From Gallaecimonas sp. GXIMD4217 (lineage in GTDB: Bacteria; Pseudomonadota; Gammaproteobacteria; Enterobacterales; Gallaecimonadaceae), in assembly GCF_038087665.1 (NCBI RefSeq), contig NZ_CP149925.1, forward strand, positions 771,455 through 835,454: DNA of 64,000 nt, read 5' to 3'. A program made the position numbers and the translations under genes. This document shows, one piece after another, positions 7,391 through 13,031 of the stretch (the stretch's first letter is position 1; each line of letters opens with the position of its first letter). The notes below the pieces were generated by a model. The model made no database searches, was not told where the DNA came from, and worked only from the letters and a program-made list of their open reading frames with translations.

Positions 7391-8530
7391 ATGTCGAAGC
7401 GCGATTTATACGAAGTACTGGGCGTGGACAAGGGCGCCGACGAGCGCACCATCAAGCGCGCCTACAAGAAGCTCGCCATGAAGTACCACCCGGACCGCAA
7501 CCCGGGTGACGCCGAGGCCGAGGCCACCTTCAAGGAGGTCAAGGCCGCCTATGAGGTGCTCACCGATCCCGACAAGAAGGCTGCCTACGACCGCTACGGC
7601 CATGCCGGCATCGATCCCAACATGGGCGGTGGCGCCGGTGGCTTCGGCGGTGGTGCCGACTTCAACGACATCTTCGGCGACGTCTTCGGCGACATCTTTG
7701 GTGGCGGCCGCCGCGGTGGTGGCCATCGCCAGGCCCGTGGCGCCGACCTGCGCTACAACATGGAGCTGAGCCTGGAGGAGGCCGTCAAGGGCGTCTCCAA
7801 GGAGATCAAGGTGCCCACCTATGTGCACTGCGATACCTGCGACGGCTCCGGCGCCAAGCCCGGCACCAGCGCCACCACCTGTGGCACCTGCCACGGCCAG
7901 GGTCAGGTGCAGATGCGCCAGGGCTTCTTTGCGGTGCAGCAGACCTGTCCGGTCTGTCACGGCAAGGGCAAGACCATAGACGAGCCCTGCAGCGACTGCC
8001 ACGGCCAGGGCCGCAAGCAGAAGACCAAGACCCTCAACGTCAAGATCCCCGCCGGGGTGGACACCGGCGACCGCATCCGCCTGGGCGGCGAAGGGGAAGC
8101 GGGCCAGTTCGGCGCCCCCGCCGGCGATCTCTATGTGCAGGTGCACGTCAAGGACCACCCGATCTTCGTCCGCGACGGCAACAACCTCTACTGCGAGGTG
8201 CCGATCAGCTTCACCACCGCCGCCCTGGGTGGCGAGATCGAGGTGCCGACCCTGGACGGCCGGGTCAAGCTGAAGATCCAGCCGGAGACCCAGACCGGCC
8301 GCATGTTCCGCCTGCGCGGCAAGGGCGTGCAGTCGGTGCGCAGCGGCGCCCTGGGCGATCTGCTGGTCAAGGTGGTGGTCGAGACCCCGGTCAAGCTCAC
8401 CGACGAGCAGCGCGAGCTGCTGGAGAAGTTGGAGCAGAGCCTCACCGGTGAATCCGCCAAGCGCCACAAGCCCAAGGCGGAAGGCTTCTTCGACGGCGTG
8501 AAACGCTTCTTCGACGACCTGTCCAGCTGA
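7391..8530 (+). CDS. dnaJ: Chaperone DnaJ (Hsp40)
   Basis: 379 residues, the type I DnaJ layout. The J domain (1-70) has HPD at residues 33-35. A Gly/Phe-rich linker (about 75-110) follows, then a zinc domain with four CxxCxGxG repeats ([32 protein letters not shown]), and two C-terminal beta domains. It stimulates DnaK ATPase and delivers substrates. It lies 64 bases after dnaK and is transcribed from the same heat-shock promoters. Confidence 0.98.
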
Positions 8531-8543
8531 GGCTGACGGAATG

Positions 8544-8572
8544 AAAAAGGCGCCCTCTTGGGCGCCTTTTTT
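8544..8572. terminator. Bidirectional terminator between dnaJ and dsbD
   Basis: AAAAAGGCGCCC / GGGCGCCTTTTTT stem with loop TCTT, between convergent genes. Confidence 0.92.
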
Positions 8573-8587
8573 ATGTGGCCAGCTCTG

Positions 8588-10024
8588 TCAGAGCCTGGCC
8601 AGGGTCTCCAGGAAGCGGTCCGCCTTCTGGAAGCCGGTTACCCGCAGCGTCTTCAGCTCCTGGCCCTGGCCGTCGAAGAACAGCAGGGTGGGCAGGCCCA
8701 GCACCTGATAGTGGTTCATCATTTCGATGTCCTGCTCGGTGTTGTCGGTGACGTCGGTCTGCACCAGCACCATGTCCTTGAAGCGGGCCTGCACCCTGGG
8801 GTCGGTGAAGGTGTACTTCTCGAATTCCTTGCAGGCCACGCACCAGTCGGCATAGAAGTCCACCATCACCGGCTTGCCCTGGGCACTGGCGGCGGCGATC
8901 ACCTGCTGCATCTCGGCCAGGTTGCGGACCTTCTGGAACTGGCCGTGTTGCTCGGCCTGCTGCACGGCGGCAGGGGGGAACAGGGTGCGGTAGCCCAGCA
9001 CGGCGCCGCTGAACAGGCCCAGGAAGATCGCCAGGGTGCGGGCCCCCTTCCAGAAGCCGCCCCGGCTGGTGCTGTTGGCCTGGGCCAGGTAGCTGAAGGC
9101 GACCAGCAGCAGCGCCGCCCACAGCAGGTTTTCGCTCCACTCGGGGAGCAGCCGGCCCAGCAGCAGCACCGGCACCGCCAGCAGCATGAAGCCGAACAGG
9201 TGCTTGATGGTCTCCATCCAGGCGCCGGCCCTTGGCAGCAGCTTGCCGCCGGAGGTGCCCAGCAGCAGCAGCGGCAGGCCCATGCCCATGGACAGGGCAT
9301 AGAGGGCCAGGCCGCCCAGCACCATGTCGCCGCTCTGGGCCACATAGAGCAGGGCGCCGGTCAAAGGCGCCGTGGTACAGGGGCTGGCCACCAGGCCGGA
9401 GATCACCCCCATCACCAGCACGCCGGCCATGGAGCCGCCCTTTTGCTTGTTGGAGATGGCGTTGAGGCGTTCCTGGAGGCCGGAGGGCAGCTGCAGGTTG
9501 AACAGGCCGAACATGGCCGCCGCCAGCACCACGAACAGCAGCGACAGCGCCACCAGTATGGCCGGGTGCTGGAAGGCGGCCTGGACCTGGGCGCCGGCGC
9601 TGGCCACCACCAGGCCAAGGGCGGTATAGGTGATGGCCATGCCCTGCACGTAGAGGAAGGAGAGGCTGAAGGCCCGGCCGGTGCTCAGCTTGCTGCCGGC
9701 CCCGGCGATGATGCCGGTGAGTATGGGGTACATGGGGAAGACACAGGGGGTGAAGGCGATCAGCAGGCCGGCGCCGAAGAAGGCGGCCAGGGTCAGGGCC
9801 AGGCTGGAGCCGGCCAGCATGCCGGCCAGGCGATCCTGCTCGCTCTGGGCGGCGCCGGAGGATTGGCCGGCGGCCGGTGCCGTGACGGTCATGGCCACCG
9901 GAGCTACGGGCAGGATTTCGGACTCTTCGCTCTGCAGCAGCGGGTTGGCCAGCAGCGGGTTGGCGGCCTGGACCGGCGGCAGCGGGCCCAGCAACAACAG
10001 CAATGTGATCCAGAGTGCTTTCAT
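8588..10024 (-). CDS. dsbD: DsbD-type disulfide reductase lacking the N-terminal alpha domain
   Basis: 478 residues against 565 in E. coli. DsbD carries electrons from cytoplasmic thioredoxin to the periplasm. After a signal peptide (1-21) comes a 50-residue Ala/Gln-rich linker, then the eight-helix beta domain with its cysteine pair at C94 (AFTPCVFPMYP) and C216 (ASPCTTAP). The C-terminal thioredoxin-like gamma domain has WCVAC at C395/C398. The roughly 120-residue periplasmic alpha domain (DsbD-N) is absent: the signal peptide joins directly to the linker. A good alpha domain is encoded by the next gene upstream (10270-11511). Beta and gamma cysteines are intact, so the electron path up to the periplasmic face should work. 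Confidence 0.92.
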   Translation of the reverse strand: MKALWITLLLLLGPLPPVQAANPLLANPLLQSEESEILPVAPVAMTVTAPAAGQSSGAAQSEQDRLAGMLAGSSLALTLAAFFGAGLLIAFTPCVFPMYPILTGIIAGAGSKLSTGRAFSLSFLYVQGMAITYTALGLVVASAGAQVQAAFQHPAILVALSLLFVVLAAAMFGLFNLQLPSGLQERLNAISNKQKGGSMAGVLVMGVISGLVASPCTTAPLTGALLYVAQSGDMVLGGLALYALSMGMGLPLLLLGTSGGKLLPRAGAWMETIKHLFGFMLLAVPVLLLGRLLPEWSENLLWAALLLVAFSYLAQANSTSRGGFWKGARTLAIFLGLFSGAVLGYRTLFPPAAVQQAEQHGQFQKVRNLAEMQQVIAAASAQGKPVMVDFYADWCVACKEFEKYTFTDPRVQARFKDMVLVQTDVTDNTEQDIEMMNHYQVLGLPTLLFFDGQGQELKTLRVTGFQKADRFLETLARL

Positions 10025-10221
10025 GGTGGTGTTTCCTCTTGCAGCCGGCTCGGGCAAACCGGCAGTGCCAGGACCTCCGGTGTCTCATGGGGATACGGCT
10101 CGACGATGAGCTGCTCCCGGGATCGGCCAGACGCCTTGAGGTGGCTGGCCCATCGAGCTTTGCTTCTTTCCACCGCTTCGGGCTTGGTGAGGCGACAGCG
10201 GCGAAGGGCCCTGATGCCCAT
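10021..10221 (-). CDS. Possible small hypothetical ORF
   Basis: 66 codons from ATG at 10221; its stop overlaps the dsbD start as ATGA, which would permit coupling. It begins just after a strong hairpin. The product is basic and Pro/Glu-rich, with no recognisable domain, signal or helix. Third-position GC looks lower than in the neighbouring genes, so it may be chance. It may only be the dsbD leader. Confidence 0.25.
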   Translation of the reverse strand: MGIRALRRCRLTKPEAVERSKARWASHLKASGRSREQLIVEPYPHETPEVLALPVCPSRLQEETPP

Positions 10222-10224
10222 GGT

Positions 10225-10260
10225 CCAGGCAGAGCCCCGCCTTGGCGGGGCTCTGCCTGG
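10225..10260. repeat. Perfect 17-bp inverted repeat (hairpin) upstream of dsbD
   Basis: Left arm 10225-10241, two-base loop TT, right arm 10244-10260, all 17 pairs perfect and very GC-rich (core CAGAGCCCCGCC). No T-run follows on either strand. It starts 10 bases after the stop of the thioredoxin-DsbD alpha gene. It may protect that gene's mRNA 3' end or modulate read-through into dsbD. Confidence 0.85.
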
Positions 10261-10269
10261 CAAAGGCGG

Positions 10270-11511
10270 TCAGGGCAGGGTGCGACTGGCGGGGGGGTAG
10301 CAAAGGCCGGCGTCGGCGCAGCCCCTGAAGCGCACCTTCAGCTGCAGATCCCGGGCCAGGGGCACCTTGAGGCGCAGCTGCCGGCGGTAGATGCGGCTGG
10401 TGCCGAAGTAAGGGTCTTGGTGAGTCAGGGCCTCGGGGTAGCTAATGGCCAGGGGCCGGCCCCCGGCGCTCAGCTGGAGCTGATCCTGGTAGAGGTAGTA
10501 GCCATCGGCGATGTCCCAGGTCAGCACCAGCTGGTCGCCGTCGCGCTTGCTGCTCAGGGCAAAGGCCTTATCCACCGGCAGGAAATCCGGCTTGGCGGCG
10601 CTCAGCTGCTTGACCAGGGCCGCCCGGTCGTCAAAGTCGGTGATCCTGGCCAGCACCTGGCCGTCCTTGACCCAGAGCAGGGTGGGGATGTCGCGGATGG
10701 CGAAGTGGTGGAACAGCAGGCCCATCTCGTCTATCTGGATGGGCTGGCGCAGCTGGTACTTGTCCCTGAATTCCTGCACCGCCGCCTGGTCCGTCCAAAG
10801 GTGGTTGACCAGCACCTGCCAGGGGCGGTTGGGCAGGGCCGCCGTCAGGGCGTTGAGGCCTTGCTGGGCCCGGGTGCAGCGCTGGGCCATGGCTGGCCTG
10901 CTGTCCGCCAGGTACCAGTCGCACCAGGTGGCGGTAAAGAACAGCAGCTTTTCCCCTTGCAGCCAGGGGGCCAGCTGCTGGCTGGCCTGGCCGTGATCCA
11001 GGCCGGCGGTGGCCAGGGACGGCTGGGCCTTGCCCTCGGCCAGCAACGCCAGCTGGCGATCCAGCTCGGCGTCGGCCTCGTGGGTGCTGTAGACCACCTG
11101 GCCCTGGGCATTGATCAGCACATGATAGGGGGTGCCCACCAGCCCCAGGGCGACGCCCAGGGCCCCTTCATTGTCGAGCCAGATGGGAATATGGAGCCCA
11201 TAGCGTTCCACCACCTTGTCGATGGCGTCCCTGGACTCGTTGATGTTGATGTTCAGGGCCAGTACGTTGAGCTTGTCCTGGTAGCGCTGGTAGGCGTGCT
11301 CGAAGTGCGGCATCTGCTCCAGGCAGGGCTGGCACCAGCTGGCCCAGAACTTCAGGTAAAGGGGCTTGCCCTGGGGCAGGCTGGCCAGGGTCACGGGGGC
11401 CTGGTCGTTGAAGCGCTTGAGGGGGATATGCCGGTAGGCGTTGTCCTGGGCCAGGGCCGCTGCACTGCACAGCAGGCAGAGGGCGGTCAGGAGGCGTTGC
11501 CAGATCACCAT
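10270..11511 (-). CDS. Periplasmic TlpA-like / thioredoxin-like / DsbD-alpha fusion protein
   Basis: 413 residues with a signal peptide (1-22, cut after AALAQ). Domain 1 (about 25-160) is a TlpA/ResA-like thioredoxin with an active CxxC at C60-C63 (WASWCQPC) and the cis-Pro loop VGTPYH. Domain 2 (about 175-305) is a second thioredoxin fold (LLFFTATWCDWY ... IRDIPTLLW) that has lost the second cysteine of CxxC. Domain 3 (about 309-413) is a DsbD alpha domain: it keeps LTWDIADGYYLYQDQ, PYFGTSRIYRRQL and the redox loop GCADAGLCYPP (C398, C404). Start MVIWQRLL has GAGGA upstream. dsbD, which lacks this domain, follows on the same strand. Inference: this protein is the mobile periplasmic acceptor of DsbD electrons. 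Confidence 0.88.
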   Translation of the reverse strand: MVIWQRLLTALCLLCSAAALAQDNAYRHIPLKRFNDQAPVTLASLPQGKPLYLKFWASWCQPCLEQMPHFEHAYQRYQDKLNVLALNININESRDAIDKVVERYGLHIPIWLDNEGALGVALGLVGTPYHVLINAQGQVVYSTHEADAELDRQLALLAEGKAQPSLATAGLDHGQASQQLAPWLQGEKLLFFTATWCDWYLADSRPAMAQRCTRAQQGLNALTAALPNRPWQVLVNHLWTDQAAVQEFRDKYQLRQPIQIDEMGLLFHHFAIRDIPTLLWVKDGQVLARITDFDDRAALVKQLSAAKPDFLPVDKAFALSSKRDGDQLVLTWDIADGYYLYQDQLQLSAGGRPLAISYPEALTHQDPYFGTSRIYRRQLRLKVPLARDLQLKVRFRGCADAGLCYPPASRTLP

Positions 11512-11525
11512 GGGAATGTCCTCGT

Positions 11526-11561
11526 TTCGGTTTGGGATGACCGAAGGATCGCATTTATATT
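11526..11561 (+). promoter_or_regulatory. mocR-type gene promoter with a nearby inverted repeat
   Basis: TTGGGA (11532-11537), 18 bases, TATATT (11556-11561) is a plausible promoter for the regulator at 11595. The inverted repeat TTCGGT-N8-ACCGAA (11526-11545) covers its -35 and could be an operator. The region is shared with the divergent thioredoxin fusion gene. Confidence 0.4.
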
Positions 11562-11594
11562 GGTACCCTGAGAGTGCCAATGAAGGATAATTTC

Positions 11595-13031
11595 ATGGAT
11601 CCAGTTTTTGGCCTGAATCTGCACCTGGACCGCCAGGGGCCCGAACCGCTGCGGGTGCAGCTGCAGCGGCAGCTGAGCCAGGCCATCTTCGAGGGGCGCC
11701 TCAAGGCCGGCACCCTGCTGCCCTCCAGCCGCCAGCTGGCGGCACGGCTGGGCGTGTCGCGCAATACGGTGATGCAGGTCTACGAGCAGCTGGCCAGCGA
11801 GGGGCTGCTGCGCACCAAGCCTGGCAGCGGCACCCAGGTCAACGACCTGGCCCTGCCGCCCAGCCAGGAGCCGGGGCGGCCCGAGGCGGGCCACTGGCTC
11901 AAGGGGCTCTGGAGCGGGCTGCCCCTGTTCGCGCCGCCGGCAGCGCCGCTGCGTTACGACTTTGCCCTGGGGGCCGCCGATCTGTCCCGCTTTCCCTTCG
12001 ACCACTGGCGCCGTTGCCAGGCCAGGGCCCTGCGCCAGTTCGAAACCCAGGGCCTGGAGATGGACTGGGCCGGTTACCCGCCCCTGCGCACCCTTATCGC
12101 CTCTTTCGTGTCCCAGTCCAGGGCCGTGTCCTGCACCCCGGGGCAGGTGCTGGTGTGCAGCGGCGCCCAGCAGGGCTTCAGCCTGATCGGCGGCTGCCTT
12201 ATCGAGCCGGGCCGCACCCTGGTGGCCATGGAGTCTCCCGGCTATCCCATGGCCCGCCGGGCCTTCCTGGCGGCAGGGGCCAGGGTGGTGGAGGTACCGG
12301 TAGACGACCAGGGCCTGGTGGTGGAGGCCCTGCCCGAGGGGGTTGATCTGGTCTATGTCACCCCTTCCCACCAGTTCCCCACCACGGTCGCCATGTCGGC
12401 GAGCCGCCGCCTGGCCCTGCTGCAAAAGGCCAGGCAGCAGGATTTTTTGATCATCGAAGACGACTACGATGCCGAGTTCCAACTGAGCGGCCAGCCCATA
12501 GACGCCTTGCAGACCCTGGATAAGGACGGCCGGGTGCTCTACGTCGGCACCTTTTCCAAGTGCATGTTCGGGGATCTGCGGCTGGGCTTTCTGATCGTGC
12601 CGGACTGGCTGGTGCAGCCTCTGGTGCTGGCCCGCCAGGCGGCGGATCTGCACAGCCCCCTGGTGGCCCAGGCGGCCCTGGCCGATTTTATCCGCCAGGG
12701 GGCCCTGAGGCGTCATATCAGGGCCATGAATCGTCTCTACCGGGCCAAGCACCAGGCGGTGTGTCGGGCCCTGGCCGACTGCCCCTGGCTTGCCCCCGTG
12801 CCCTTGCTGGCCGGGGTGCACATGGCGCTGCTGGCCGAGCCCGGGCTGGATCTGGACGCCCTGGTGGCCAGGGCCAGGCAAGCGGGAGTCAATGTCAGCC
12901 ACAGCGGGCCTTTCGGCCTGGCCCAAGGGGCTCGCCCCCGCCACCTGTTGCTGGGCCTTGGCCCCATCGCCCTGGAGGACATCGACGAGGCCATGGCCCT
13001 GCTCAAGGCCGCCCTGGCCGAAGAGTTGTGA
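11595..13031 (+). CDS. MocR-family transcriptional regulator (GntR HTH fused to aminotransferase fold)
   Basis: 478 residues. N-terminal winged helix (about 15-80: GTLLPSSRQLAARLGVSRNT, VYEQLASEGLL). C-terminal class-I aminotransferase fold with IIEDDYDAEF and the PLP lysine in GTFSKCMFGDLRLGF, so it probably binds pyridoxal phosphate. Start chosen at ATG 11595 because AAGGA lies eight bases before it; ATG at 11580 and GTG at 11574 are in frame but lack a good ribosome site. PdxR-like family members often act on a divergent neighbour, here the thioredoxin-DsbD alpha gene, but the target is not shown by sequence. Confidence 0.88.
   Translation: MDPVFGLNLHLDRQGPEPLRVQLQRQLSQAIFEGRLKAGTLLPSSRQLAARLGVSRNTVMQVYEQLASEGLLRTKPGSGTQVNDLALPPSQEPGRPEAGHWLKGLWSGLPLFAPPAAPLRYDFALGAADLSRFPFDHWRRCQARALRQFETQGLEMDWAGYPPLRTLIASFVSQSRAVSCTPGQVLVCSGAQQGFSLIGGCLIEPGRTLVAMESPGYPMARRAFLAAGARVVEVPVDDQGLVVEALPEGVDLVYVTPSHQFPTTVAMSASRRLALLQKARQQDFLIIEDDYDAEFQLSGQPIDALQTLDKDGRVLYVGTFSKCMFGDLRLGFLIVPDWLVQPLVLARQAADLHSPLVAQAALADFIRQGALRRHIRAMNRLYRAKHQAVCRALADCPWLAPVPLLAGVHMALLAEPGLDLDALVARARQAGVNVSHSGPFGLAQGARPRHLLLGLGPIALEDIDEAMALLKAALAEEL

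Follow-up and report, generated by a model that had tools for sequence, protein, structure and literature searches.

In the alpha domain of DsbD, electrons are received from the gamma domain and handed out to periplasmic thioredoxin-like partners, as has been described (PMC7347389, PMC6210582); the thioredoxin-like domain of Neisseria PilB is reduced by nDsbD, with a rate for this pair of about 6e5 per M per s (PMC6210582). A second DsbD that has no alpha domain and occurs beside a complete DsbD is LpDsbD2 (PMC4491210). The present analysis concerns two adjacent genes in a 64,000-nucleotide stretch of DNA (hereafter the window) from Gallaecimonas sp. GXIMD4217 (contig NZ_CP149925.1, positions 771,455 to 835,454): a dsbD gene without the alpha domain, and a gene for a twin-thioredoxin protein, with the domains TrxA and TrxB, that ends in a DsbD alpha domain (hereafter the fusion).

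An earlier note on this DNA had proposed a split DsbD, whose alpha domain had moved out of the dsbD gene onto the neighbouring protein. This proposal is rejected here, because a complete dsbD exists elsewhere in the genome, of which the window gene is a 98% identical duplicate, and because the fused alpha domain, far from being the missing piece of its neighbour, shares no more than 36.5% identity with the alpha that this complete gene encodes. Two separate events are instead considered to have shaped the locus (probability about 0.6): the gain of an alpha domain by the twin thioredoxin, and the duplication of dsbD with loss of alpha from the duplicate. In the order of events that we infer, a periplasmic twin-thioredoxin protein, which elsewhere stands alone or near a complete dsbD, would have acquired a C-terminal alpha domain within the genus, most likely through a deletion that joined its gene to the alpha part of a second DsbD directly downstream, the state found in the congeneric genome G003 (this second DsbD is hereafter DsbD2). 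In the window genome (G000) only, when compared with the four congeners searched (G001 to G004), the 3' end of cutA and dsbD would have been copied to a place beside the fusion, interrupting yjbR, and the dsbD copy would have lost its alpha domain through a deletion between short repeats.

When compared with DsbD, as represented by NF001419 or by PF11412 with PF02683, the locus is alike in that the fused domain is an alpha domain and the neighbouring product has the membrane and gamma domains, but differs in that alpha lies at the C-terminus of a twin thioredoxin and is missing from the neighbour. The presence of an alpha-less DsbD beside a complete one recalls LpDsbD2 (PMC4491210), although the window copy is a 98% identical duplicate and is known from sequence alone. 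The N-terminal thioredoxin domain of PilB (PMC6210582) likewise belongs to a multi-domain periplasmic protein and is fed by DsbD alpha; there, however, alpha sits on DsbD, whereas here it sits on the client. Twin thioredoxins of the Alteromonadales and other Proteobacteria share with the fusion the two domains, four invariant cysteines and a MocR-type neighbour, but those outside the genus have no in-frame alpha domain in the loci searched. Four further loci (L208 to L210 and L213, described below) are similar in that alpha is separate from the DsbD membrane domain and associated, by gene order or by fusion, with a TlpA-like thioredoxin, and differ in their order and partners (an Lgt-like part and, in L209, a small membrane protein) and in having no TrxB match. 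No description of a twin thioredoxin-DsbD alpha architecture was found in a literature search carried out mostly outside subscription journals. Thus, each half of the finding has counterparts of a similar kind, while the particular arrangement is new.

The fusion protein and its C-terminal alpha domain

The principal features of the locus are as follows.

10270 to 11511, minus strand: fusion gene, 413 amino acids (TrxA, TrxB and DsbD alpha), from the open reading frame (ORF), translation, Pfam and an AlphaFold2 model
11017 to 11445, minus strand: TrxA, residues 23-165, CxxC C60/C63 (WCQPC), cis-Pro P128; Redoxin 2e-21, ResA by sequence and fold
10597 to 10977, minus strand: TrxB, residues 179-305, WC-x14-C (C197, C212); alignments, marginal Pfam matches
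10273 to 10593, minus strand: DsbD alpha domain, residues 307-413, C398/C404; PF11412, 1l6p, Foldseek match to 3pfu
8588 to 10024, minus strand: dsbD duplicate without alpha, 478 amino acids; signal peptide (by eye), linker, membrane domain, gamma thioredoxin (WCVACK)

Both ORFs lie where the earlier note had placed them. The fusion starts with an ATG at 11511 and stops at 10270, as judged from the ORF and its translation, and its product comprises a signal peptide (identified by eye), a TlpA/ResA-like TrxA, a thioredoxin-like TrxB and the C-terminal alpha domain, with redox cysteines C60/C63 in TrxA, C197 in TrxB and C398/C404 in alpha. Pfam matches to Redoxin (57-170) and DsbD_N (330-433) were obtained in a 435-amino-acid reading that opens 22 codons before the ATG, so that 22 is subtracted for numbering from the ATG. 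An AlphaFold2 model of the whole fusion, built from 52 aligned rows, has a mean predicted local distance difference test (pLDDT) score of 91.2, and its 50 listed Foldseek matches in the PDB include DsbD alpha as well as ResA-type and related thioredoxins.

The assignment of the first domain as a TlpA-like thioredoxin with WCQPC, and the position of alpha behind the two thioredoxin-like domains, agree with the earlier note; besides the Redoxin and ResA sequence matches, C60, C63 and P128 are invariant in the alignment and the fold matches ResA (1su9_B) at 3.0e-11. The second domain had been described as a thioredoxin that lacks one CxxC cysteine. The CxxC is indeed missing, and TrxB fails the canonical thioredoxin motif, but it has WC-x14-C in its place, with C197 and C212 conserved throughout two overlapping alignments, in 36 of 36 rows of one and 52 of 52 of the other (of the 49 reference twin thioredoxins, L059 was left out of the alignment). 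Pfam thioredoxin matches to TrxB are marginal, and below cut-off in the window copy; the model places C197 in a loop and C212 in the helix that follows. In view of the second invariant cysteine, the candidate explanation that TrxB is merely a broken thioredoxin was rejected, and the C-x14-C pair is possibly an unrecognised redox site. The same replacement of CxxC by W-C-x14-C in the second thioredoxin-like domain is observed in Gammaproteobacteria and Duganella (the window and L030-L063).

The C-terminal domain is a DsbD alpha by both sequence and fold. It matches PF11412 (DsbD_N) with an E-value of 2.4e-27 (95.8 bits, cut-off 25), and its alignment to the E. coli DsbD alpha chain 1l6p (5e-23) pairs residues 307-413 with 8-118 of that chain. 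For its separate model the alignment comprised 35 rows, of which 3 were fusions and 32 were DsbD alphas (L141, L146 and L159 were left out); this model has a pLDDT of 94.2 and the Ig-like alpha fold that the earlier note had expected. The first 18 PDB matches found by Foldseek are all solved DsbD alpha structures, the best being E. coli 3pfu (4.9e-12, TMt 0.81, 40% identity), and the fold matches include alpha in complex with gamma (1vrs) and with DsbC (1jzd).

A loss of electron transfer by the fused alpha, which would then serve as a binding or folding module, is quite improbable. It would be compatible with cap-loop residues unlike those of E. coli (DPYF in place of DEFY), but the fused alpha retains the cysteine pair together with Y, Y, D and G at the invariant positions, and DsbD2 has the same cap variant. 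Across the 35 rows the invariant alpha columns are C95, C101, Y35, Y36, Y38 and D63, so the conserved tyrosines are retained with the cysteines. The cap-loop phenylalanine F70 of DsbD alpha shields the disulfide (PMC7347389); the fused alpha has Tyr at the aligned position, and the aromatic character is kept.

The alpha-less dsbD and its surroundings

The alpha-less dsbD begins with an ATG at 10024 and stops at 8588. Pfam identifies DsbD_TM (4.3e-92) and the gamma thioredoxin, and the protein scores 590 bits against NCBIfam NF001419 (cut-off 330). It does not qualify as a complete DsbD, in line with the absence of alpha reported in the earlier note, since no DsbD_N match was obtained with Pfam up to an E-value of 0.1; nor is it a CcdA, as gamma thioredoxin matches span 373 to 475.

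The window genome (one contig, 3.35 Mb) contains DsbD_N at two places, the fusion and a 664-codon frame at C1:2784369, and DsbD_TM at two places only, this frame and the window copy. The frame at C1:2784369 is a complete dsbD with alpha, membrane domain and gamma. A second complete dsbD, which the earlier note had held would speak against its proposal if it acted as the main enzyme, is thus present in the same genome. From the linker to the end, a stretch of 441 amino acids, the identity between the two proteins is 98.4%, and therefore the alpha-less gene is a duplicate of the complete one. The copy lacks an in-frame segment of 315 bp, which in the complete gene is bounded by two copies of CCCGTGGA, each encoding PVD, one at either end of the alpha domain; as read from the sequence, alpha was removed by a short direct repeat deletion.

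9900 to 9915, minus strand: deletion junction at which alpha is missing (315 bp, in frame; CCCGTGGA flanks alpha in the complete gene)

The copy and the complete gene differ by 31 substitutions in the 1434 nucleotides compared, distributed unevenly, with 13 in the 120 nucleotides upstream of the deletion and 18 in the 1314 downstream (Fisher p 3e-7). This skew on either side of the deletion suggests that the downstream part of the copy was probably homogenised by gene conversion. A misassembly, in which the copy would be a misplaced piece of the complete dsbD, is hardly credible: one stretch of very high identity is what such an error would leave, but the substitutions, the deletion, the copy's own cutA remnant and its other flanks argue against it, as does the state of the genome (a single contig, 99.68% complete, 0% contamination).

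The flanks of the copy contain the remains of other genes.

10027 to 10130, minus strand: degraded 3' end of cutA (named by eye), which came along with the dsbD duplicate; alignment, translation
10168 to 10226, minus strand: yjbR remnant, a 59-nucleotide match (74.6%) to G004
10225 to 10260, minus strand: strong hairpin just past the fusion stop, without a T-run; z-score -7.28 for 10205-10275

The cutA remnant matches the DNA upstream of the complete dsbD at 66% over 122 columns, and the gene preceding the complete dsbD was recognised by eye, without a family search, as cutA. In G001 and G004, yjbR is whole downstream of the fusion (the G004 gene matches PF04237, YjbR, at 5e-29), whereas the window keeps about 60 nucleotides of it, followed by the cutA remnant; by this comparison the dsbD duplicate is inserted into the yjbR gene. 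Behind the fusion of G001 and of G004, ahead of yjbR, there are likewise hairpins, with diverged sequences.

The evidence on whether the copy has a role was examined from several sides. After the deletion, the nonsynonymous divergence (dN) between copy and complete gene is 0.006 and the synonymous divergence (dS) 0.036, with a probability of 0.0004 for 6 or fewer nonsynonymous changes among 18, while the N-terminal part has a dN of 0.097 and many amino acid changes. When changes after the deletion were polarised with four relatives, the unambiguous ones on the copy's own branch amounted to 4 nonsynonymous and 4 synonymous nucleotides (P 0.13 against neutrality), and therefore selection on the alpha-less copy is not demonstrated; the three amino acid changes on this branch hit residues that are invariant in the five main DsbDs. 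The copy is found in one of the five congeneric genomes, and when 388 genomes of the order were searched, 282 gave a match, with the window copy as the only one among the matches listed whose open frame was shorter than 570 codons.

The odds lean slightly towards a recent neutral duplicate in decay, homogenised by chance gene conversion and without a role for the fusion, as suggested by its occurrence in a single genome, its degraded cutA and yjbR flanks, the divergent N-terminal part and an own branch without clear constraint; the ORF intact across 478 codons and the low pairwise dN/dS after the deletion are against it. The opposite view, that the alpha-less DsbD is retained specifically to supply the fused alpha, because its gamma has no alpha within the same protein, and forms a private branch beside the general DsbD, appears doubtful. 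It draws on the adjacency and common orientation of the two genes, on an unbroken ORF that includes the membrane domain and the gamma CxxC, on the same low post-deletion dN, and on LpDsbD2 as a precedent (PMC4491210), but the copy is confined to one genome, G001 and G004 carry the fusion without it, its branch shows no constraint and has lost invariant residues, and between the ORFs lie a strong hairpin and the remnants of genes.

Source and distribution of the fused alpha domain

Three of the five congeneric genomes carry the full fusion (G000, G001 and G004). In G003 the twin-thioredoxin gene is followed about 50 nucleotides downstream by the complete DsbD2, and in G002 neither the fusion nor a twin-thioredoxin gene with DsbD2 was found. 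The complete main dsbD is present in all five genomes, and in G001 and G004 it is the sole match with membrane domain plus gamma. Each of the three genomes with the fusion has a complete dsbD elsewhere. In each of G001 to G004, a further DsbD_N protein was observed (L018-L021; open frames of 655-683 codons, E 6.7e-15 to 6.8e-20), perhaps ScsB-like, with no match of this type in the window genome.

Among 394 genomes of the order, 20 gave a match at 1e-30, including 16 that do not belong to the genus; the alpha part was matched only in the three congeners, and none of the 17 loci from the 16 outside genomes had alpha in the twin-thioredoxin frame. In a scan of named genomes, the best 80 of 420 relatives were kept and the first 35 looked at (L030-L064). 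Both thioredoxin domains were found in 33 of these loci, none with alpha in the same frame, and a complete dsbD lay within 0.5 kb downstream on the same strand in three of the 33 (L038, L039 and L049), with a small ORF (cutA by eye) in between in L038 and L049. The start of a dsbD lies downstream of the twin-thioredoxin gene in L124 and L125 too.

A wider survey of the phylum covered 398 genomes, 134 with an alpha match; alpha occurred in six open frames shorter than 400 codons among the matches listed, and the loci of these six and of two longer frames were examined. Free alpha proteins are encoded about 1 kb from a TlpA-like gene in L208, L209 and L210, the alpha sequences of the last two being identical. 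At 1783-4465 of L209 the gene order is TlpA-like thioredoxin, Lgt-like gene, free alpha and small membrane protein, with a MerR-like regulator beside them (names other than TlpA and alpha by eye), and in L213 alpha, an Lgt-like part and a TlpA-like thioredoxin share one frame. L211 is a free alpha, L206 an alpha with other hydrophobic segments, L207 a DsbD apparently in three frames (a frameshift is possible) and L212 a DsbD cut by the contig end.

The fused alpha was probably derived from a second DsbD of the DsbD2 type, as suggested by the gene order in G003 and by shared motifs: among 34 alphas, YQDQ, HQDPYFG and an R before GCA are common only to the fused alphas and DsbD2, while the other 30 have Q before GCA. 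The fusions form one clade (support 98/88). DsbD2 itself groups with Alteromonadaceae-type DsbDs (100/99) and not with the main DsbDs of the genus, in a tree of 33 of the 35 DsbDs (L141 and L146 were left out by a motif filter). An origin of DsbD2 as an in-genus duplicate of the main dsbD is disfavoured by this grouping, yet the branch is long.

Several points weigh against the proposed history. The alpha tree (117 columns) does not join the fused alpha with DsbD2, and the approximately unbiased (AU) test rejects neither origin group (DsbD2, p 0.242; the main DsbDs of the genus, p 0.237); since tree and tests are not decisive, the case for DsbD2 is made by gene order and motifs. DsbD2 is a long branch whose placement is flagged as unsure. 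Both the DsbD tree and a midpoint-rooted CarB plus DnaJ tree give G000 the outermost position and group the nested G003 with G002, and therefore a fusion in the ancestor of the genus would need a reversal or a transfer in G003. The G000 and G004 fusions are 89% identical, whereas their main DsbDs are 69% (alpha), 77% (membrane) and 68% (gamma) identical, which suggests that the fusion was likely transferred within the genus. As to function, the fused alpha would face competition for gamma from the alpha that is tethered in the complete DsbD.

The surroundings of the twin-thioredoxin gene also include a regulator.

11574 to 13031, plus strand: MocR/GntR-type regulator, divergent from the fusion; GntR 1.3e-17, Aminotran_1_2 4.7e-19

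A MocR-type regulator was found, by BLAST clustering, near the twin-thioredoxin gene in 14 of 38 loci (the window, L023-L025, L038-L043, L046, L049, L057 and L058), often divergent as judged by eye, which suggests shared regulation of the two genes. In the window dnaJ follows the dsbD copy; in G001 a long distance separates it from the fusion, and in G003 and G004 it does not share a contig with the fusion or twin-thioredoxin gene. Among the four genomes with the twin-thioredoxin gene, dnaJ adjoins it only in the window genome. The block 7391-13031 has probably moved, perhaps together with the dsbD duplicate.

Possible electron path and implications

The fusion is most likely a periplasmic reductase fed by DsbD gamma. 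Electrons would pass from cytoplasmic thioredoxin through the DsbD membrane domain and gamma to C398/C404 of the fused alpha, from there to the tethered TrxA (C60/C63), perhaps also to C197/C212 of TrxB, and finally to periplasmic substrates. The complete DsbD would be the main electron source, and the alpha-less copy could also donate. The earlier note had linked the loss of alpha to the fusion, but G001 and G004 carry the fusion and no alpha-less DsbD was found in them, so that in these two genomes the donor, if there is one, must be the complete DsbD. Because a complete copy of the pump is retained, the fusion probably represents an additional side branch, as opposed to a reconstruction of the pump. 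A dedicated soluble relay, as the earlier note had put it, is a possible role. A stronger form, in which alpha is carried by the client so that one soluble protein would take electrons from gamma to both TrxA and the C-x14-C of TrxB, with the alpha-less DsbD purposely kept to feed it and two DsbD branches running in parallel, is considered unlikely on the present comparisons.

The two-event history would mean that DsbD alpha is a movable module, which can ride on a client thioredoxin. With separate genes, a fusion without the copy and a fusion with an alpha-less copy, one genus offers a natural set for understanding the choice of alpha by gamma, and the C-x14-C pair of TrxB, which occurs across many Proteobacteria, may be regarded as a candidate redox site.

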